From IMG/VR virus record IMGVR_UViG_3300025904_000009, positions 1 to 28,094 of that record: a stretch of 28,094 nucleotides of DNA; one strand, given 5' to 3'. The notes under the pieces were generated by a model. The model searched no databases, was not told the DNA's origin, and worked only from the letters and a program-made list of their open reading frames with translations. The position numbers were made by a program, and so were the translations under genes. The DNA is from a virus. Shown here one piece after another: positions 5,157 to 27,981 of the stretch. How positions within the stretch are numbered: position 1 is the first letter of the stretch; the number at the start of each line of letters is the position of its first letter.

Positions 5157-5768
5157 TCATTTTTCGCGGTCCAGAAATGTGTACGGGGTGGCAACCTCGA
5201 CAAGGCGGCGAAGGCCTAGGAAAAACTCGTCTTCAATCACTCGGACGTGCGCCTTGCTTCGCGGAATTATCCGCGTCCGAAAATGCCCGTCGATGATGTA
5301 GGACTTCTCGCGGCTGCCAAATCGCACCATGGCCACCTCCCTGAATGGTCTGTCCATGAGAGCGACAGATTGCAGCGTCGACAGCACGGAGCCGATCGCA
5401 TCCTCACACATCCGAAGGTTGGCCTTGGCCTGATACTGCCACTCGCTCGGGCCTTCGCCATTGCCCGACCCGAAATCACGGTTGAGCACTGAACGGACAA
5501 GCGACCGATCGGCACCTTCGTGCGCGCGGCGATAGAACCGGAGGCAGCGGCGGTCTATGCTGTCGATGATACCGCGCTGGTACATCGTCTCGAACCAGGG
5601 CAGCCGACGATATGCTTCGCCAATGGTGATGCTCTTGTTGCCTTCGCGGTCGACGATGGGCTTCAACTCAAACGTCGCATGCCTCATCTGCTCCGGCGTA
5701 GGCGCCACCACGCCCTCACGATTCTCTGCCCCCTCGTCGTCGAATTCCATCTTGATCGCTGCCATCAT
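5157..5768 (-). CDS. Unknown protein in the position of a late antiterminator
   Basis: 203 residues starting MMAAIKMEFDDEG. The ATG at 5768 follows a G-rich ribosome binding site (GGGGGG) one base after the stop of the preceding small gene. No family was recognised with confidence. It has an acidic start and a central basic region with IDSIDRRCLRFYRRAHEG and SLVRSVLNRDFG. The C-terminal half is compact, with strand- and helix-like segments (REVAMVRFGSREKSYIIDGHFRTRI and VRVIEDEFFLGLRRLVEVA). It is the last gene before an intrinsic terminator and the terminase operon, the place lambda Q occupies. A role in late gene activation or antitermination is therefore a positional inference only. It could also be a packaging accessory factor. 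Confidence 0.75.
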   Translation of the reverse strand: MMAAIKMEFDDEGAENREGVVAPTPEQMRHATFELKPIVDREGNKSITIGEAYRRLPWFETMYQRGIIDSIDRRCLRFYRRAHEGADRSLVRSVLNRDFGSGNGEGPSEWQYQAKANLRMCEDAIGSVLSTLQSVALMDRPFREVAMVRFGSREKSYIIDGHFRTRIIPRSKAHVRVIEDEFFLGLRRLVEVATPYTFLDREK

Positions 5769-6596: not shown

Positions 6597-7371
6597 CAGC
6601 GAGGAGCTGGAGTACACCGTCCCGCATGCGATCGGCGTATCGGCCCTGGTTTCCAGATCTGTTCCCATTGAAGTTTCTCGAAGTTGGTCGTGGATCGAAG
6701 ATGGCGCCCCAGCCCCGTTCGGCTGCATGCTGGAGGACACGACCGGGTGGCCATTCGTCATCCGAGAATTTAGCTAGATCTCGCAATTGCGCTTGGTAGG
6801 CGGTCTCGGTGTTGGCCAGCTTCTTCTTTCGACGATTTTCCCGGAAATCACGCCAGTGAGCCGGATCAACCCCTGGAGGACAAACGGCAAAGTGATCGAT
6901 GTGGCGGGCATGCGCGACTGAGGTAGCTTTAGCTACCGAAGGATCTTTCTTATATTCTTCCCTTCCTTGTTCTGTGCCTCGCGTCTGCCTCACGTCTGCC
7001 TCATTTACTGCCTCACGCACTGCCTCATTTGCTGCCTCACTATCTTCCGAAATCACCTGGAAACGATCGTAATTACATATAGTTATTACCATCGCCGCTG
7101 CCTCACGGCGTGTTTCAATCATTGCCTCGGAGATCATGCGGCGCCACAACCGCTCGACCCACGCCTTATCGCGATCCAGCGCAGCCGCCATGTCCCGTTG
7201 CGACACACAAAGCTGGCCACGTTGAAGATGAACGCCGTGACCCTTGTAGCGAACGCGTACCTCGCGCCATGCCGCCTTCGCCACCATCCATGCGAACGCC
7301 ATCGCTTCCGCGTCGTTGCGGAATGCGTGATGTCCCAGGAGGGAACGGTGAAGGCGAATGTATCCGCTCAC
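6580..7371 (-). CDS. Replication initiator-like protein (winged-helix N-terminus)
   Basis: 263 residues from a GTG at 7371. That start overlaps the stop of the nuclease gene (GTGA) and has GGAG five bases upstream. The N-terminal 100 residues (SGYIRLHRSLLGHHAFRN..., then QLCVSQRDMAAALDRDKAWVERLWRRMISEAMIETRRE... and NYDRFQ) match the winged-helix domain of phage replisome organisers of the lambda O / DnaD-like type, which bind the origin. A linker made of E-A-x-x repeats (EAANEAVREAVNEADV) follows and coincides with DNA iterons. The C-terminal part has VDPAHWRDFRENRRKKKLANTETAYQAQLRDLAKF and DDEWPPGRVLQHAAERGWGAIFDP, a pattern common at the end of phage replication proteins. Family assignment is by pattern, without a database search. 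Confidence 0.82.
   Translation of the reverse strand: MSGYIRLHRSLLGHHAFRNDAEAMAFAWMVAKAAWREVRVRYKGHGVHLQRGQLCVSQRDMAAALDRDKAWVERLWRRMISEAMIETRREAAAMVITICNYDRFQVISEDSEAANEAVREAVNEADVRQTRGTEQGREEYKKDPSVAKATSVAHARHIDHFAVCPPGVDPAHWRDFRENRRKKKLANTETAYQAQLRDLAKFSDDEWPPGRVLQHAAERGWGAIFDPRPTSRNFNGNRSGNQGRYADRMRDGVLQLLADGIDP
6918..7095. other. Candidate phage replication origin inside the initiator gene
   Basis: Six head-to-tail units of consensus GCCTCAnnnnCT lie at 6976-6986, 6987-6997, 6998-7009, 7010-7021, 7022-7033 and 7034-7045. The first two are 11 bp and the last four 12 bp. They are flanked by notably AT-rich DNA in an otherwise GC-rich genome: about 6928-6975 (with TTTCTTATATTCTTC) and 7050-7090 (with AATTACATATAGTTATTA). 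The perfect inverted repeat GGTAGC-TTTA-GCTACC is at 6922-6937. Lambda-type origins have this architecture within gene O. The function is inferred. Confidence 0.55.
6976..7045. repeat. Six 11-12 bp tandem iterons
   Basis: The units share GCCTC(A/G) at their start and CT at their end. They stay close to one helical turn, so a bound protein would sit on one face of the DNA. They code for the E-A-x-x linker of the initiator-like protein. The two 11-bp units break the 12-bp coding period, so repetition of the peptide alone does not explain them. Confidence 0.8.
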
Positions 7372-7865
7372 CCCTGCTCCGCCCACCTAGAGTAAGCACG
7401 AGTAACCGCAAAATAGATCTCTGTAATACACTTGTTTACGTCGGCGTAGATCTCAGCTCCGGTAAACCGCAGGATCTTGAAACCTTCCGCAGTCAAATAG
7501 CGATCTCGAGCCTTATCCCTCTGAGCCTGTTCTTTTGTTTTCTCGTGAAAGTCATGCCCATCGCATTCGATTGCAAACCATTGATTGAGGGAACGTCCGC
7601 CAGATTGCGCCGTAAGATGGATGGCGAAATCAAGGCGGTAATCTCCTGCCGGTGGTTGAATATAAATTATGGCTGACCATTCGGTTTCGATGGATGCAGA
7701 GGGCATTGCCGCGAACCTAAAATGCTTATTCAGCAAATGCATGGACACCAGCCCCACGCCCAAACCCGTTTCAATGGGGCTTTCGCACGCCTGTAAGTGG
7801 TCAACCGACAATTGGTAAACGGCGCCCGCCAATCGGTCGGCAACGCGACTGATGTAATGTTCCAC
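7368..7865 (-). CDS. DUF559/Vsr-like PD-(D/E)XK nuclease
   Basis: 165 residues from a GTG at 7865, supported by GGAGG nine bases upstream. The fold signature is a helix with CESPIE (residues 27-32), then YRLDF with Asp79, then WFAIECDGHDFHEKTKEQAQRDKARDRYL (about 96-124) with Glu100 and Asp102, and finally GFKILRFTGAEIYAD. This order matches the DUF559/Vsr-like branch of restriction-type nucleases, in which the conserved acidic residues bind metal. The DNA substrate is unknown. The gene begins a translational unit with the replication initiator (GTGA overlap), so it may act in replication or recombination, or degrade host or competitor DNA. The N-terminal extension, residues 1-55, carries no known domain. 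Confidence 0.8.
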   Translation of the reverse strand: MEHYISRVADRLAGAVYQLSVDHLQACESPIETGLGVGLVSMHLLNKHFRFAAMPSASIETEWSAIIYIQPPAGDYRLDFAIHLTAQSGGRSLNQWFAIECDGHDFHEKTKEQAQRDKARDRYLTAEGFKILRFTGAEIYADVNKCITEIYFAVTRAYSRWAEQG

Positions 7866-9877: not shown

Positions 9878-10061
9878 GTTCATTCTCCTTGGGTTGAGCT
9901 GAGGTTCGGCGCGACGCGGCGATGCCAAATTCGGCAAGCCTCGCGCTCAGATATTCGGTCGTTTTCATCTCTTCGATCAGGCGGTGACGCATCTCCCGCG
10001 CAGTGCAGAAGAGGGCGACGTCCATGGCGAAGAATAGGATGGCGAGGACCCAGCCGATCAT
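9861..10061 (-). CDS. Small single-span membrane protein
   Basis: 66 residues with one hydrophobic N-terminal segment (MIGWVLAILFFAMDVALFCTA, residues 1-21), followed by a charged helix (REMRHRLIEEMKTTEYLSARLAEFG) and a basic tail. It would sit in the inner membrane with its C-terminus probably in the cytoplasm because of the positive charges. The ATG overlaps the methyltransferase stop (ATGA), and its end overlaps the next start by about 17 bases. Function unknown; it is not in a typical lysis cassette. Confidence 0.7.
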   Translation of the reverse strand: MIGWVLAILFFAMDVALFCTAREMRHRLIEEMKTTEYLSARLAEFGIAASRRTSAQPKENERGTRT

Positions 10062-11455
10062 GCGGCGGCCTCCGCGGGGTCCGGCGGATATATTCGACGC
10101 TCGGCGATAGACGCATATTCTGGATTGAGTTCGATCAGCGTCGCACGGATCCCGATCTGCTCGGCTACCAAACCTACCGTGCCCGCGCCTCCAAACGGAT
10201 CAAGCACATGACCAGGAACCCGCGGAAATGTTTCGCAAATACCGCCACAGCCGGAATGGGCGCCGCAGTACCCGCATACCGTTTCCGGCGTTCCGGCCAC
10301 GATGCAACGACGAGCGAGTTCGGGCGGGAAGGTCGCGAAATGTGCTTCGCGGAATGGTTTGGGTGCGATTGTCCAGACGTTCCGAGCGTTGCGGGTTTCG
10401 ACAACCTGAACGAGAGCAGCGTTGAAGCTTGCGTTGGCCTTGATTCCTTGACCCGGAGGTGCGGCCTTCGGCCCAACTCCCGGCTCGCGGTGAATAGTGC
10501 CATGAGCGCCAGGCGCTGTATCCCAGCCCGACGGCACTTTCTTCCGCGATCTAGGAACGCGGTCGACATGCACACGGCTATTAGCCCCGGCCGTGCGAAC
10601 CACCGCCTTCATTGGGCGATCCGGTCGCGTACCTCCGTTTGCCCGAGCTGACCCAGATTGGTTCGCCACATCCTGCGACACGCGCGCATGCGTGTTCGGC
10701 GAGCACGGCTCACGGATCGCCTCGTGGTTGTAAAAGTAATCCTCACTCTTGGTGAGCAGCCAGATCTTTTCATGAGCGGAAGTTGGCCGATCATAGACCG
10801 ACTCCGGCATCGGGTTGGGCTTGTGCCAAATGATTTCCGACCGGACGTACCAGCCGTCGTCCTGTAACGCGATCGCGAGCCGGTTCGGGATCATGCAGAG
10901 ATCCTTTGGCTTTAGATAACCGCCAGCGACGATCGCGCCCGGCGCCGTCACACCTGACGATCGGCGATGCAGCTTGCCACGTTCGCCGCGATCGCCGTGG
11001 TAATCGGCCTGATAGACGGGGCCAGACTTCGGCCGCATGTGATCGTGAAACTCGCGGTCGACACCGCGGGAACCGCCCTCGGCACCGTAATAGGTTCTGC
11101 CGTTGATCGGCCCTACCGTGGAGAACGGCTTGTCACGGAAGGTGCGATCGTCGCTGCCATCCGCCTTATAGGCTTCGGCCGACTTCCCATTCGGCGCCGC
11201 CGCATAACAGTCGCCATAATTGAGCCAGAGAGTGCCCTGGTTTTTGAGAACGCGCCTGACCTCGCGAAACACCCGAACCATCACATCGAGGTGCTCGCCT
11301 AGCGTCGACTCGAGACCAATCTGTCCAACGACGCCATAGTCCCGCAGGCCCCAATACGGTGGCGATGTAACAACGCAATCGACGCTGTTGCTGGGTAATT
11401 CGCGCAGCCGATCAAACACGTCGCCAATGAGGATTGTCACGCGGGGATCCGCCAT
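10058..11455 (-). CDS. Beta-class DNA methyltransferase (N6-adenine or N4-cytosine)
   Basis: 465 residues from the ATG at 11455. The catalytic motif IV TSPPYWGL is at residues 30-37 and the AdoMet motif I DPFGGAGTVG at 419-428. This order, catalytic motif first, defines the beta class. The enzyme methylates an exocyclic amino group on adenine or cytosine. The region between (about 85-400) holds the target recognition part, with YLKPKDLCMIPNRLAIALQDDGWYVRSEIIWHKPNPMPESV shared by this family. A cysteine-rich patch (CGYCGAHSGCGGIC) before motif I is unusual and may bind zinc. An ATG at 11479 adds eight residues but lacks a ribosome binding site. It is the first gene of the leftward operon, so it probably modifies phage DNA early. 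Confidence 0.92.
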   Translation of the reverse strand: MADPRVTILIGDVFDRLRELPSNSVDCVVTSPPYWGLRDYGVVGQIGLESTLGEHLDVMVRVFREVRRVLKNQGTLWLNYGDCYAAAPNGKSAEAYKADGSDDRTFRDKPFSTVGPINGRTYYGAEGGSRGVDREFHDHMRPKSGPVYQADYHGDRGERGKLHRRSSGVTAPGAIVAGGYLKPKDLCMIPNRLAIALQDDGWYVRSEIIWHKPNPMPESVYDRPTSAHEKIWLLTKSEDYFYNHEAIREPCSPNTHARVSQDVANQSGSARANGGTRPDRPMKAVVRTAGANSRVHVDRVPRSRKKVPSGWDTAPGAHGTIHREPGVGPKAAPPGQGIKANASFNAALVQVVETRNARNVWTIAPKPFREAHFATFPPELARRCIVAGTPETVCGYCGAHSGCGGICETFPRVPGHVLDPFGGAGTVGLVAEQIGIRATLIELNPEYASIAERRIYPPDPAEAAA

Positions 11456-11740
11456 CAGCGCAGTCCCGAAATCAAACATTTGTTAACCAAATGGCTGCCG
11501 CGACAGTCACTACGGGGCGCGTTATGACGCAGCCCATGAATTGCAGGGTAGCTCACTGAGCCGAGCCTTCCGCTCCAAAGCACATCGTCAGATCGTCCAG
11601 CCGGGGAGAGCGACAGCGCCCTCCCCGACCGGCCTTTCGTCGCGACCCGACGGAAGAAGGTTGCGCCCCGCCGCTCGCTTGGTGGCGGCACGGCGAGGCG
11701 CTATTCGTGCGGTTGTCGAGACAGCACGAAAGGATGAGCG
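11456..11740. other. Non-coding gap between leftward operon and rightward small gene
   Basis: About 285 bases without a convincing gene, between divergently oriented coding regions. It should hold promoters for both directions, but I found no convincing -35/-10 pair and no copy of the GTAGGA-N4-TCCTAM operator. The only structure that stands out is the hairpin at 11602-11627. Confidence 0.6.
11602..11627. promoter_or_regulatory. Strong GC-rich hairpin
   Basis: CGGGGAG-A-GCG, loop ACAG, CGC-C-CTCCCCG: a 10-bp stem with one A/C mismatch and a four-base loop. No run of T follows on either strand, so it is not a canonical terminator. It may be a leader structure, an operator or a weak terminator between divergent units. 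Confidence 0.5.
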
Positions 11741-12025: not shown

Positions 12026-12244
12026 TCACGCTGCCTCGACCTTGTCCGTCGAGGGCGCGACATATCCATCCATGAAGGTCCGGACTCGTTGCAGCGTTTC
12101 GGGTCTCAAGAGCCGAGCTGCTTTGATATCTCGAACGAAATGCGGATCGCCCATGGCTTTTCGGCCAAAGGTAACTTCCGACATGGGATGCTTCTTTAGG
12201 AAGGCATCGATTTCGGCGACGAGTTCAGGGTGATAGCGAGACAT
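12026..12244 (-). CDS. Small HTH regulator (Cro-like position)
   Basis: 72 residues. AEIDAFLKKHPMSEVTFGRKAMGDPHFVRDIKAARLLRPETLQRVRTFMDGYV (about residues 10-62) resembles a small alphaproteobacterial helix-turn-helix family in which an F-x-x-x-x-G-M-S-x-x-T-F-G-like helix is followed by D-P-x-F-V-x-x-x-R. It faces away from the CI-like repressor and shares its control region, the arrangement of a cro/cI pair. A sigma70-like promoter (12254-12282, minus) would start RNA only about three bases before the ATG, so the message may be leaderless. Whether it is a Cro-like antirepressor or a second repressor cannot be told from sequence. Confidence 0.8.
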   Translation of the reverse strand: MSRYHPELVAEIDAFLKKHPMSEVTFGRKAMGDPHFVRDIKAARLLRPETLQRVRTFMDGYVAPSTDKVEAA

Positions 12245-12253
12245 GGGTCGCGT

Positions 12254-12282
12254 TGATAACGTAGGATTGGTCCTACGGTCAA
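12254..12282 (-). promoter_or_regulatory. Promoter of the small HTH regulator, with operator in its spacer
   Basis: On the minus strand, TTGACC (forward 12277-12282) and TTATCA (forward 12254-12259) are separated by 17 bases, a good sigma70 fit. The spacer is filled by the palindrome at 12261-12276, so a bound repressor would exclude RNA polymerase. The predicted start, near 12247, is almost at the ATG (12244). Confidence 0.7.
12261..12276. promoter_or_regulatory. Operator, left pair, site 1
   Basis: GTAGGA-TTGG-TCCTAC is a perfect 6-bp inverted repeat. An exact 16-bp copy occurs at 13779-13794. It is likely bound by the CI-like repressor and/or the small HTH protein. Confidence 0.75.
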
Positions 12283-12291
12283 GCCATCAGA

Positions 12292-12307
12292 GTAGGATGT
12301 ATCCTAA
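12292..12307. promoter_or_regulatory. Operator, left pair, site 2
   Basis: GTAGGA-TGTA-TCCTAA has the same half-sites, with the last base changed. Its centre is 31 bp from that of site 1, about three helical turns, so two dimers would lie on the same face of the DNA. It lies between the two divergent start codons. Confidence 0.7.
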
Positions 12308-12326
12308 CCTAGTTCCGAACTGCACA

Positions 12327-12346
12327 ATGTGGGAGACTTCCCACAT
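12327..12346 (+). promoter_or_regulatory. Hairpin covering the repressor ribosome binding site
   Basis: An 8-bp perfect inverted repeat (ATGTGGGA / TCCCACAT, four-base loop) ends in the repressor start codon (ATG at 12345). The only ribosome binding site, GGGAG (12331-12335), is in its left arm and would be hidden when folded. The left arm also begins with another in-frame ATG (12327). Confidence 0.6.
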
Positions 12347-13064
12347 GGAAAAAGGGGACAAAACACCGCTCCAAACATTCCTTGCGCAGGCCCTGGCGCA
12401 TGCTCCCGAAGCTCGAGATTTTTACGATCGCAAGATACAGGAGATCACCGGAAGCAAGGGCAAGCCGATCTACGATATCGAGCGAGGAAAAAGTCTGTCC
12501 CCTAGCCGTTCAACTTTGAAGAACATAGCTTCGGCACTGGACCAGCCTGTCGACCTGGTCATGCGCGCCGCCGATGGGGAACAGGTTTCCCCGTTGAAAC
12601 GGCCATTGCCGCGGCCGGATTTGCCGCTGACGGTCGACGCCTCGGCAGCCGATGAAGTTGTGGATATCATTCGTCTCGATCTGTCGCTCTCCATGGGGCC
12701 AGGCGCCACGGTCGACGATTACATCGAGGAGATCCCGGTCAAGTTCGACATCGGTTACATACGGGCCTTTTCGCGGGCGCCCTTCGATCGATTACGCATT
12801 GCCCGCGGCGTCGGCGACAGCATGTATCCGACGATCCTGAGCAGCGACGAGGTCTGGATCGACACATCACAGCGCGTGGTCAATCAGCAGGACCGCGTTT
12901 GGGCGTGCTCCATCTACGGTGCTGCCGCCATAAAGCGATTGAGAACCATTGGTCACGGCAAGATTTTGGTCATTTCCGACAACCCGACCGTAGAAAACCA
13001 GGAGGTTGACGCCGAGGATATCATGGTCGCGGGGCGCGTGGTTCGTTTTAGCCGAGACATCTGA
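12345..13064 (+). CDS. CI-like phage repressor with S24 (LexA-type) domain
   Basis: 239 residues from the ATG at 12345. That start has GGGAG nine bases upstream; ATG 12327 and ATG/GTG codons further 5' would cross the operators. The N-terminus (residues 7-72) is an XRE-like DNA-binding domain, and residues 50-63 (SLSPSRSTLKNIAS) are consistent with it. The C-terminal S24 domain has GVGDSMYPTI with catalytic Ser159 and AAIKRL with the general base Lys197. No clear Ala-Gly cleavage site lies between the domains, so RecA-stimulated self-cleavage is doubtful. The domain may serve for dimerisation only. It most likely binds the GTAGGA-N4-TCCTAM sites and keeps lysogeny. The HIRAN gene follows with a TGATG overlap. 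Confidence 0.9.
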   Translation: MEKGDKTPLQTFLAQALAHAPEARDFYDRKIQEITGSKGKPIYDIERGKSLSPSRSTLKNIASALDQPVDLVMRAADGEQVSPLKRPLPRPDLPLTVDASAADEVVDIIRLDLSLSMGPGATVDDYIEEIPVKFDIGYIRAFSRAPFDRLRIARGVGDSMYPTILSSDEVWIDTSQRVVNQQDRVWACSIYGAAAIKRLRTIGHGKILVISDNPTVENQEVDAEDIMVAGRVVRFSRDI

Positions 13065-13459
13065 TGCCCCGTGAGATGAGCTTGGCAGTCGTAGGAGCTG
13101 ATTACCCTAACCGCCGCGGGCCCGGGAGAAGATTCGAGATCCGACTTTGTGCTCCAGGTGAAGAAGTGCACCTCGTGCCGGAACCCAATAACCCCGCCGA
13201 TCCAAACGCGATCGCGATATTCAGCTGCCGCCACGTCCAGATCGGCTACCTAACCGCTGAACGCTGCCCATACGTGGCGAGGCTCATGAGCCGAGAGCCA
13301 AAATTGAAGGCGGTGTTCCAAGCTGCTGCGAATTACGGTGCAATCATCCGGATCAATCTCGATGGCAAAACCCCAGAGATCCCTGATCCTTTCAGCGCGC
13401 CGGAAGAAGAGCACTGGACAGATGAATATTTCAACCAGGATGATCACGAGGTTGAGTGA
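13064..13459 (+). CDS. HIRAN-domain protein
   Basis: 131 residues, translated from an ATG that overlaps the repressor stop (TGATG). The HIRAN pattern fills residues 7-80: LAVVGADYPNRRGPGRRFEIRL, then VHLVPEPNNPADPNAIAIFS, then VQIGYLTAERCPYVARLM. HIRAN modules bind DNA 3' ends or stalled structures in HLTF/Rad5-like and several bacterial proteins. The rest is an acidic tail (PEEEHWTDEYFNQDDHEVE). It is co-transcribed with the repressor, so it would be made in the lysogen. A role in superinfection exclusion, host defence or DNA repair is possible, but nothing in the sequence selects one. Confidence 0.8.
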   Translation: MPREMSLAVVGADYPNRRGPGRRFEIRLCAPGEEVHLVPEPNNPADPNAIAIFSCRHVQIGYLTAERCPYVARLMSREPKLKAVFQAAANYGAIIRINLDGKTPEIPDPFSAPEEEHWTDEYFNQDDHEVE

Positions 13460-13494
13460 CTAAGGATCGTTCACGTCAGCGGAGTGACTTCTTG

Positions 13495-13746
13495 ATGCGG
13501 AACAAGCGTTACGCCCTAGCCACATTGTTGGGTTGCTTATGCCTTCTAGGCGGGTGCAAGGTGCATAAGCTACAGAACGAATACGAGATGATGGAGCGGA
13601 ACCACGCGTCGAAGGCTGAGCTTTGCGCGCAAGCCCGCCTGATTACCCAGGCCGCTTTGGATACCGGCATCGAGAAACTCTATTCGGACAAGAAGCTGCA
13701 GTCAGACATCGCGTGCTTAGGAGCACAGCTCGATCTTTCGAATTAA
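13495..13746 (+). CDS. Small lipoprotein of the repressor operon
   Basis: 83 residues from the ATG at 13495, giving a textbook lipoprotein signal: MRNKRY, a hydrophobic core ALATLLGCLCLLG, and the lipobox LGGC with Cys21 as the lipidation site. A GTG at 13456 overlaps the HIRAN stop (GTGA) and would add 13 polar residues, which is less suited to a signal peptide. The mature part is charged, with a likely helix (HKLQNEYEMMERNHASKAELCAQARLITQAALDTGIEKLYSDKKLQ) and two further cysteines. It is not linked to lysis genes, so an Rz1 role is unlikely. Expression with the repressor suggests lysogenic conversion or superinfection exclusion, which is inference. Confidence 0.75.
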   Translation: MRNKRYALATLLGCLCLLGGCKVHKLQNEYEMMERNHASKAELCAQARLITQAALDTGIEKLYSDKKLQSDIACLGAQLDLSN

Positions 13747-13747
13747 A

Positions 13748-13763
13748 GTAGGACGTTTCCTAA
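13748..13763. promoter_or_regulatory. Operator, right pair, site 3
   Basis: GTAGGA-CGTT-TCCTAA: half-sites as in the left pair, with the same TCCTAA ending as site 2. It lies directly after the lipoprotein stop and upstream of the -35 element. Confidence 0.7.
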
Positions 13764-13770
13764 TTTCGTG

Positions 13771-13799
13771 TTGACGACGTAGGATTGGTCCTACATAAG
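13771..13799 (+). promoter_or_regulatory. Promoter of the rightward early operon
   Basis: TTGACG (13771-13776) and CATAAG (13794-13799) are separated by 17 bases. The spacer is the operator at 13779-13794, so repressor binding would block RNA polymerase. The predicted start is near 13806, about 22 bases before the ATG at 13828. Confidence 0.7.
13779..13794. promoter_or_regulatory. Operator, right pair, site 4
   Basis: GTAGGA-TTGG-TCCTAC, identical to site 1 over all 16 bases. Centre-to-centre distance to site 3 is 31 bp, the same as in the left pair. The preceding bases (GTTGAnnACGTAGG) also match the left copy, so the segment may be a duplication. Confidence 0.75.
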
Positions 13800-13800
13800 C

Positions 13801-13823
13801 ATTCCCAGCAAACGCTGAGGAAT
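13801..13823 (+). promoter_or_regulatory. Leader hairpin over the ribosome binding site of the early operon
   Basis: ATTCC-CAGC, loop AAAC, GCTG-A-GGAAT: a 9-bp stem with one bulged A. The ribosome binding site (GAGGA, 13817-13821) is in the right arm. RNA starting near 13806 would lack the outer left arm, while read-through RNA from the repressor operon would keep it. Confidence 0.45.
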
Positions 13824-13827
13824 CGCA

Positions 13828-25834: not shown

Positions 25835-26032
25835 ATGACTTTCGTCGCTCACGGCGGCGGCCCAGATCCGCATTTCGATGCCGACGATCCTAAGCCTGTG
25901 ATGGTGCGGGTTCGTTATCGCAATGGGTTCAGCAGCGAGCCCGTCGACTCGCGCAAGCGGCGATGGCCATGGGGCGGCAGGTTCCCGTCCAACTATGATT
26001 GGGACATCGTCGCTAGCGAGGTGGTGGCATGA
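25835..26032 (+). CDS. Small hypothetical protein before the methyltransferase
   Basis: 65 residues, MTFVAHGGGPDPHFDADDPK and onward. VMVRVRYRNGFSSEPVDSRKRRWPWGGRFPSNYDWDIVASEVVA occurs as a small protein in alphaproteobacterial phages. It is a short beta-rich domain with a W-P-W core. The ATG follows a weak GGTGCAGG. ATGA overlap with the methyltransferase. Confidence 0.72.
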   Translation: MTFVAHGGGPDPHFDADDPKPVMVRVRYRNGFSSEPVDSRKRRWPWGGRFPSNYDWDIVASEVVA

Positions 26033-27981
26033 AACCCGCCCGCCTGATGGCTACCACGTCCGACATCGTAGTCGATTATTTCGCCGGCGGTGGCGGAGCA
26101 TCGCAAGGGATCGAGCAGGCGATGGGCCGGCCCGTCGACGTCGCAGTCAATCACGATCCCGAGGCGATCGCGGTCCACGCTGCGAATCACCCTGGCACCG
26201 AGCATTTCTGCCAATCGGTCTATGCCATCGATCCCCAGGACGTCGCTCGCAAGCGCCGAGTCGCTGCCGCTTGGTTCTCCCCGGACTGCAAGCACTTCAG
26301 CAAGGCAAAGGGCGCCGTCCCGGTCGACAAGAACATCCGCGACCTCGCCGACGTCGTACCACACTTCATCAAACGCCTCGGCGCTGATTATCGACCGCTC
26401 GTCATCCTCCTGGAGAATGTCGAGGAGTTTCGCACTTGGGGACCGATCGGCGCCGACGGCCGCCCGTGCAAGGAGCGCAAGGGACAATCGTTCGACGCTT
26501 GGGTCGCGAAGATTCGCCGGGCGGGCTACCGCGTCCAGTGGAATGAGCTTCGCGCCTGCGATTATGGGGCGCCGACGTCCCGCAAGCGCCTCTTCATCAT
26601 CGCTCGGTGCGACGGCCGGCCGATCGTTTGGCCAAAACCCACGCATGGCAAGCCGGGAAGCCCGGGCGTTCTGTCGGGCCAGTTGCTGCCATGGCGTACC
26701 GCAGCCGACTGCATCGATTGGTCGATCCCCTGCCCGTCGATCTTCGATCGAAAGCGGCCTCTGAAGGACGCGACCTGTCGGCGAATCGCCGCGGGCATCA
26801 TGCGCTATGTGGTCAACAGCGCCCGCCCCTTCATCGTGCCGGTCACGCATAGCGGCGATTCGCGCGTCCACTCGATCGATGATCCAATCCGGACAGTCAC
26901 GACCGCGAACGGCGGCGAGTTGGCGATCGTTGCGCCTGTGCTCGAGCGTCAGTTCGGAAAAAGCGCGGGATCGGATGCGAACGCTCCTCTCCCGACAACC
27001 ACAGCCGGAGGCGGCGGCAAATCTGCACTGGTCGCGGCCACCTTGGCACGAACCGCCCACGGTGAAGCTGATAAGAGCGGCAAGCGACGCGGCCGGGGCG
27101 ACCATAACATTGAACAGCCGTTGCCGACCACGACGGCTTCGCCTGATCTGGCAGTCGTATCGGCGACCATGATCGGCGTCGGGGGACGGCGCGCCCAAAG
27201 TCCGCCATTGGACGTCCAGGCACCCCATCCAACCACTACGGCGAAAGCTGACGCGGCCTTGGTAACTGCCTTCCTCCACAAATATCGACAGGGCAGCGAT
27301 GGTCAGTCGCTCGAGGATCCTGCCCCGACCATAACGGCGAACAGCTTCATCAAGCGGCCGGGCGGCGCCCCTCCTCTAGCAGTTACCGTGGCGCACCTGG
27401 CGCAGTTCAACACCAATCCCAATGGATCGGTGAATGCCGGGCATGAGGTCGAGGAGCCGGTCAGCACCGTTGCAACGAAGGGACCGCATCAAGCCGTGGT
27501 CGCATCGAACCTCGTCAAACTTCGCGGGACATCGAAGGATGGGCAGCCCGTCGACGAACCACTCCACACCATCAGCGCCGGCGGAACCCATTTCGCGCAG
27601 GTGCTCGCCTTCCTAGTCAAATATTATGGCGCAGCCGAGCACGGACAGGCCGCGAATCGCCCGCTTGATGCCATCACGGCGAAGGCGCGCTTCGGCCTGG
27701 TGACCGTCACCATCGACGGCGAGGAATATGCGATCGTCGACATCGGCATGCGAATGCTCACACCGCGCGAGCTTGCACGCGCCCAGGGCTTTCCTGACGA
27801 TTACGAGCTGGATCCGGTCTGCGACCGCGTGACCAAGGGCGGCCGGAAGGTGCGCGGGCGCCTGCCTATCGCCTCCCAGATCCGCATGATCGGCAACAGC
27901 GTCTGCCCCCCGATGAGCGAGGCCCTGTTCCGTGCGAACCTGCCGGAGCTTTGCGACCAGGCTGAGAGGATGGCGGCATGA
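26029..27981 (+). CDS. Cytosine-C5 DNA methyltransferase with repeats in the recognition region
   Basis: 650 residues. Motif I DYFAGGGGASQGI (16-28), motif IV FSPDCKHFSKAK with catalytic Cys87 (PDC in place of the usual PCQ), motif VI LLENVEE (128-134), motif VIII TSRKRLFII (183-191), and at the end ELARAQGFPDDY (581-592) and IGNSVCPP (621-628), motifs IX-X. It forms 5-methylcytosine using AdoMet. Between about 284 and 560 lie eight related units with core P-x-x-T-x-(T/S)-A followed by a hydrophobic strand (ALVxAxL). They replace the normal single target-recognition domain. It probably protects phage DNA from host restriction. A family with this layout exists in phages. ATGA overlaps at both ends. 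Confidence 0.93.
   Translation: MKPARLMATTSDIVVDYFAGGGGASQGIEQAMGRPVDVAVNHDPEAIAVHAANHPGTEHFCQSVYAIDPQDVARKRRVAAAWFSPDCKHFSKAKGAVPVDKNIRDLADVVPHFIKRLGADYRPLVILLENVEEFRTWGPIGADGRPCKERKGQSFDAWVAKIRRAGYRVQWNELRACDYGAPTSRKRLFIIARCDGRPIVWPKPTHGKPGSPGVLSGQLLPWRTAADCIDWSIPCPSIFDRKRPLKDATCRRIAAGIMRYVVNSARPFIVPVTHSGDSRVHSIDDPIRTVTTANGGELAIVAPVLERQFGKSAGSDANAPLPTTTAGGGGKSALVAATLARTAHGEADKSGKRRGRGDHNIEQPLPTTTASPDLAVVSATMIGVGGRRAQSPPLDVQAPHPTTTAKADAALVTAFLHKYRQGSDGQSLEDPAPTITANSFIKRPGGAPPLAVTVAHLAQFNTNPNGSVNAGHEVEEPVSTVATKGPHQAVVASNLVKLRGTSKDGQPVDEPLHTISAGGTHFAQVLAFLVKYYGAAEHGQAANRPLDAITAKARFGLVTVTIDGEEYAIVDIGMRMLTPRELARAQGFPDDYELDPVCDRVTKGGRKVRGRLPIASQIRMIGNSVCPPMSEALFRANLPELCDQAERMAA
26878..27708 (+). 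repeat. Eight protein-level repeats in the C5 methyltransferase
   Basis: The core segments are DPIRTVTTA, APLPTTTA, QPLPTTTA, APHPTTTA, DPAPTITA, EPVSTVAT, EPLHTISA and RPLDAITA, spaced about 32-46 residues. Most are followed by a strand such as ALVAATL, AVVSATM, ALVTAFL, AVVASNL or QVLAFLV. DNA identity between the units is low, so they are old duplications rather than recent slippage. Confidence 0.75.

Follow-up and report, generated by a model that had tools for sequence, protein, structure and literature searches.

Five 16-bp palindromes in this viral DNA are very probably the operators of a temperate-phage immunity region, laid out on the plan of phages λ and N15 and controlled by a LexA-type CI repressor, as judged from sequence comparison. 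The window analysed here is the whole stretch of 28,094 bases, taken from a single virus record. Within it the five palindromes account for 10 strand-matches when up to two mismatches are allowed, whereas shuffled windows yield 1.47 ± 1.47 matches and at least 10 are reached in none of 100 shuffles. Three palindromes form the block OR: OR1 (GTAGGATTGGTCCTAC, positions 12261–12276), OR2 (GTAGGATGTATCCTAA, 12292–12307) and OR3 (GTGGGAGACTTCCCAC, 12329–12344). Two more form OL: OL2 (GTAGGACGTTTCCTAA, 13748–13763) and OL1 (GTAGGATTGGTCCTAC, 13779–13794), the latter with the same sequence as OR1. OR2 lies 31 bp from OR1 and the centre of OR3 lies 37 bp from that of OR2, and the last base of OR3 directly precedes the ATG of the cI gene (position 12345). 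The cI operon follows, and beyond it OL2 and OL1 are again 31 bp apart. An earlier note on this DNA had described four palindromes in two pairs with 31-bp geometry, the outermost two identical. All four are real and correctly placed, but the fifth, OR3, was overlooked.

Relatives of the region were gathered by several routes. A scan with the 16-mer gave ten matches, two of which are kindred phages (L005 and L006); a search with the small protein added L013 and L014; and pattern scans contributed further loci, including Sphingomonas and Sphingobium genome contigs. A profile of aligned CI proteins, applied without use of the operators, returned 16 loci, five of them newly gained (L266, L270, L272, L274 and L277). 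CI scans with the window protein alone as the query found zero relatives, and it was the profile, the small protein and the operator patterns that succeeded. The pattern scans chose their loci by OR1 and OR2, so the comparison is free of this bias only for the 16 loci from the profile and for OR3, OL and the start codon.

All 16 profile loci carry these operators with unchanged spacing, although OR2 of L266 is degenerate (four mismatches). The order OR1–31 bp–OR2–37 bp–OR3–ATG(cI) is intact in 20 distinct loci with zero exceptions, and these loci share ancestry, so that column counts such as those given here are not independent. The OL pair is spaced 30–33 bp apart in relatives, with 31 bp in 12 of 19, and essentially no further palindromes of this kind occur elsewhere in the roughly 20 loci. 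The CI proteins are far apart (34–58% identity to the window CI in an alignment of 15) and their tree is star-like, which argues that the operator geometry is held by strong selection rather than reflecting recent descent. Relatives with this repressor therefore preserve both spacing and half-sites, the outcome on which the note had staked its reading. The proposal that each pair contains one site ending in TCCTAA fared unevenly: the cI-side last base of OR2 is C in none of 20 loci, while OR1 and OR3 always have C there, but in the relatives most OL2 sites end in C. The named hosts of this repressor family are Sphingomonas and Sphingobium. In a scan of about 400 genomes belonging to the same order as a Sphingobium host, the strict pattern turned up in that host only, and the switch family looks rare in that order.

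OR1 and OL1 are sited within the early promoters pR and pL. The leftward pR has a −35 box, TTGACC (12277–12282, minus strand), in which GTCAA, the complement of TTGAC, is invariant in 20 of 20 loci, and the rightward pL has TTGACG (13771–13776, plus strand), with TTGAC present in 18 of 19 loci. GTCAA formed part of the search pattern for some loci, but those found by the 16-mer, the small protein, the early pattern and the CI profile were not chosen for it. Since these boxes adjoin OR1 and OL1, both sites fill promoter spacers, as the earlier note had recognized for its TCCTAC sites. A generic promoter scan did not call pR or pL because their −10 boxes are degenerate.

This placement suggests how the switch would operate. 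In a lysogen, CI at OR1 and OL1 would shut pR and pL, of which pR would drive the cro-like gene and, further left, replication and packaging genes, and pL would drive recombination genes and the integrase. The 31 bp separating OR1 from OR2 and OL2 from OL1 correspond to about three helical turns, which would put CI dimers on the same face of the DNA and hence makes cooperative binding at each pair probable. The 37 bp between OR2 and OR3 correspond to about 3.5 turns. RecA-stimulated self-cleavage of CI through its Ser/Lys dyad would release the switch.

Control of cI itself may differ from the λ scheme. The T three bases past OR2 on the cI side is invariant in all 20 loci, and we infer that the (T/C)A[AGT]nnT box at the OR2 edge is the −10 element of the cI promoter. 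In the window this box is TAACCT (12305–12310, plus strand), whose second base (A) and sixth base (T) are the same in 20 of 20 loci; no −35 box is recognizable for this promoter. Transcription from here would give cI a leader of about 28 nt, with its ribosome-binding GGGA within OR3, which in the window holds a likely ribosome-binding GGGAG. Because OR2 overlaps the −10 box, filling OR2 would cover it and repress cI, making the gene autorepressing, and OR3, which lies over the cI ribosome-binding region, is the likely site for the cro-type protein to block cI in lytic growth. The full scheme, in which OR2 shuts cI, OR3 acts after initiation at the ribosome-binding site, and the gap between the operators is a lysogen-expressed, exchangeable anti-phage slot that is usually HIRAN-capped, seems to us an evenly balanced proposition.

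A more conventional arrangement, in which the cI promoter lies further right under OR3 and OR2 activates cI, has λ as its precedent and would accommodate the lack of a visible −35 box, which is as expected of an activator-dependent promoter. However, were cI transcription to begin at the ATG, the −10 box would have to fall within the variable middle of OR3, and the sole invariant promoter-like element in the OR2–OR3 region is the box overlapping OR2. We therefore regard this arrangement as rather unlikely.

The presumed ligand of these operators is encoded by cI (12345–13064, plus strand), identified by family search, alignment and fold as a cI-type repressor with an N-terminal helix-turn-helix (HTH) and a C-terminal S24 (LexA-like) domain carrying Ser159 and Lys197. 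Both residues are invariant in the CI alignment, and the structural model resembles LexA, the 186 repressor and the λ repressor; the HTH part falls under the Pfam cut-off. Conservation within CI peaks in the helix-3 region, with a mean pairwise identity of 67% compared with 37–43% elsewhere, a pattern that fits a conserved DNA target. Furthermore, the CI of L255 has retained the N-terminal domain (58% identity) but shows only 28% identity in its C-terminal half, yet its operators are kept, indicating that the operators go with the DNA-binding domain.

The cro position is occupied by a 72-amino-acid gene (12026–12244, minus strand), the first gene of pR, whose homologues adjoin OR1 in relatives. 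A model and fold search gave four helices and XRE/Cro-type neighbours with weak E-values, and comparison of the CI and cro-type profiles found no detectable homology between them. Where its start codon was identified, it lies 13–16 nt from OR1 (16 nt in the window; for L139, L255 and L270 the start was taken at ATG, with an in-frame TTG or GTG lying earlier), so the cro mRNA is probably leaderless.

That this small protein or another phage regulator is the main binder of the palindromes, with CI acting elsewhere, strikes us as improbable. The 72-amino-acid gene does accompany the operator sites in relatives, and the consistently different left half of OR3, GTGGGA in 20 of 20 loci, is what a preferred second binder would be expected to produce. 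Against this, the sites bracket the cI operon, one at the first codon and another at the last stop, the helix-3 region stands out within CI, and the L255 repressor joins the same N-terminal domain to a foreign C-terminal domain with operators unchanged. In addition, L274 and L277 keep all operator sites, whereas an intact 72-amino-acid gene was not found in the expected frame. A chance or repeat-family origin, to which the shortness of the motifs and the two identical copies might point, is refuted by conservation, given the shuffling result and the exact spacing shared by some 20 diverged loci that are otherwise essentially free of such sites, and we give it virtually no weight.

A readable binding code, with half-sites that co-vary with the repressor HTH, had also been proposed, and this part is unsupported. 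The recognition helix of CI and the operator half-site are both almost invariant, and where half-sites are altered (L266, L272, L274 and L277) there is no matching helix change. The helix of L272, L274 and L277, whose sites are rich in GTGGGA, is KPLYDLSRGKG, the same as in L139 with its mostly TAGGA sites, and L266, with GTAGGT and GTAGGG sites, has KPLYDI as in other loci. A distant switch in Zavarzinia marina (L148) has ATAGGA-N4-TCCTAT sites, and the N-terminal HTH of its repressor is of another type; one site (5264–5279) separates the repressor from a cro-type gene, and two more (within 6839–6885) lie beyond, 31 bp apart. This combination of altered sites and a different HTH is no more than a lone hint of a half-site code. 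Separately, TAGGA-N4-TCCTA pairs spaced 28 bp apart occur at 87 places in viral-contig loci (L015, L020, L022, L031 and others). These pairs surround a TGCTAAAATG-like promoter box and were set aside as an unrelated promoter family.

The gene arrangement is that of λ, mirrored. The leftward pR side carries a λ-family portal, a GpA terminase and a replication-type gene, and the rightward pL side carries exonuclease VIII-like and other nuclease genes and an integrase, the first genes past OL1 having no family match. In λ, OL is located beyond rexB. The earlier note was mistaken in contrasting λ with this region on the grounds that genes lie between the two operator blocks, as λ too has cI, rexA and rexB between OL and OR. 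The λ genes rexA and rexB stand behind cI and share its promoter (PMC11077077). Here, as in λ, a CI-type gene diverges from a cro-type gene with operators in between, and accessory genes lie behind cI (PMC11077077). Both systems also have an S24/LexA-type repressor, with a Ser/Lys dyad found here by sequence and fold, a second operator block past the accessory genes at the other early promoter, and early genes in two diverging arms. The differences are that OL has three sites in λ but two here, giving three at OR and two at OL in the window and its relatives rather than three per block; that the sites here are 16 bp with another half-site and 31/37-bp spacing; that the putative cI promoter is on OR2 rather than OR3; that cro rather than cI is probably leaderless; and that HIRAN and other cargo replace rexAB.

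The immB region of N15 and phiKO2 likewise has five 16-bp operators, three forming OR between the repressor gene and cro, the other two forming OL elsewhere (PMC4997575), and its T-A-N10-T-A symmetry is matched by OR1, OR2 and both OL sites. In contrast, OL in those phages is at repA of a plasmid prophage, whereas the pL side here has recombination-type genes and an integrase, and their CB repressor is without the Ser/Lys self-cleavage residues that the window CI has at Ser159 and Lys197. A phage search with the window CI gave no sequence match to N15 or phiKO2. In PY54, a leaderless cro mRNA is documented, as we propose here, although its cI mRNA is leaderless too, and that phage has just one recognizable operator, OR3 (PMC4488713). 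The repressor of Rhodobacter phage RcapNL, a named alphaproteobacterial phage, aligns over 97% of the window CI, at a low identity of 27.8%. Thus, the immunity switch proposed earlier is strongly supported by comparison, but it is a λ/N15-type switch in a new repressor family and not an undescribed kind of switch. No title or abstract that we found describes an operator-level study of this Sphingomonas/Sphingobium group.

The stretch between cI and OL, in the place of λ rexAB, is an exchangeable cargo slot. Its length from cI to OL2 ranges from 2 to 1,973 bp across loci. Fifteen of 19 loci carry a HIRAN-domain gene, which as a rule comes last and has its stop codon at or beside OL2. In the window, the HIRAN gene takes the place of rex in the cI operon (13064–13459, plus strand; Pfam PF08797, 6.7e-12) and is followed by a small lipoprotein-like gene (13456–13746, plus strand), the last of the operon, whose stop codon lies 1 nt before OL2 and which has no match in domain and family searches. 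Elsewhere the slot holds candidate defence families of PADLOC: a SIR2 protein (PDC-S25, 5.6e-60; L053:8802–10172), a HipA_2/DUF3037 pair (PDC-M66A/B; L139:1188–2755) and a DUF1828 protein (PDC-M24B; L266:5235–6023). A protein similar to the last is found at L270:5187–5972, an acyltransferase at L254:5753–6889, and the HIRAN protein itself has a weak PDC-M03B match. We predict that the cargo genes act in defence. Because the slot can be located through its operators, it offers a place to seek new lysogen-encoded phage-exclusion genes.

Roughly 20 diverged natural versions with one operator geometry and one half-site constitute a ready comparative set. This set is suited to asking how a λ-type switch evolves under frozen spacing, which promoter answers to the middle operator, and why the C-terminal half of CI and the cargo vary while the DNA-binding end is constant.

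Elsewhere in the window are a DUF559/MTES endonuclease-like gene (7368–7865, minus strand), an N6/N4 DNA methylase (10058–11479, minus strand) and a C5 cytosine methylase (26029–27981, plus strand). Just downstream of OL1, a hairpin (13799–13826) would open the pL transcript and recurs at the same place in relatives. Its folding energy is on average below that of shuffled sequences (18 loci, mean z −2.3), pairing is kept by differing sequences, and the hairpin may include the first gene's ribosome-binding site.
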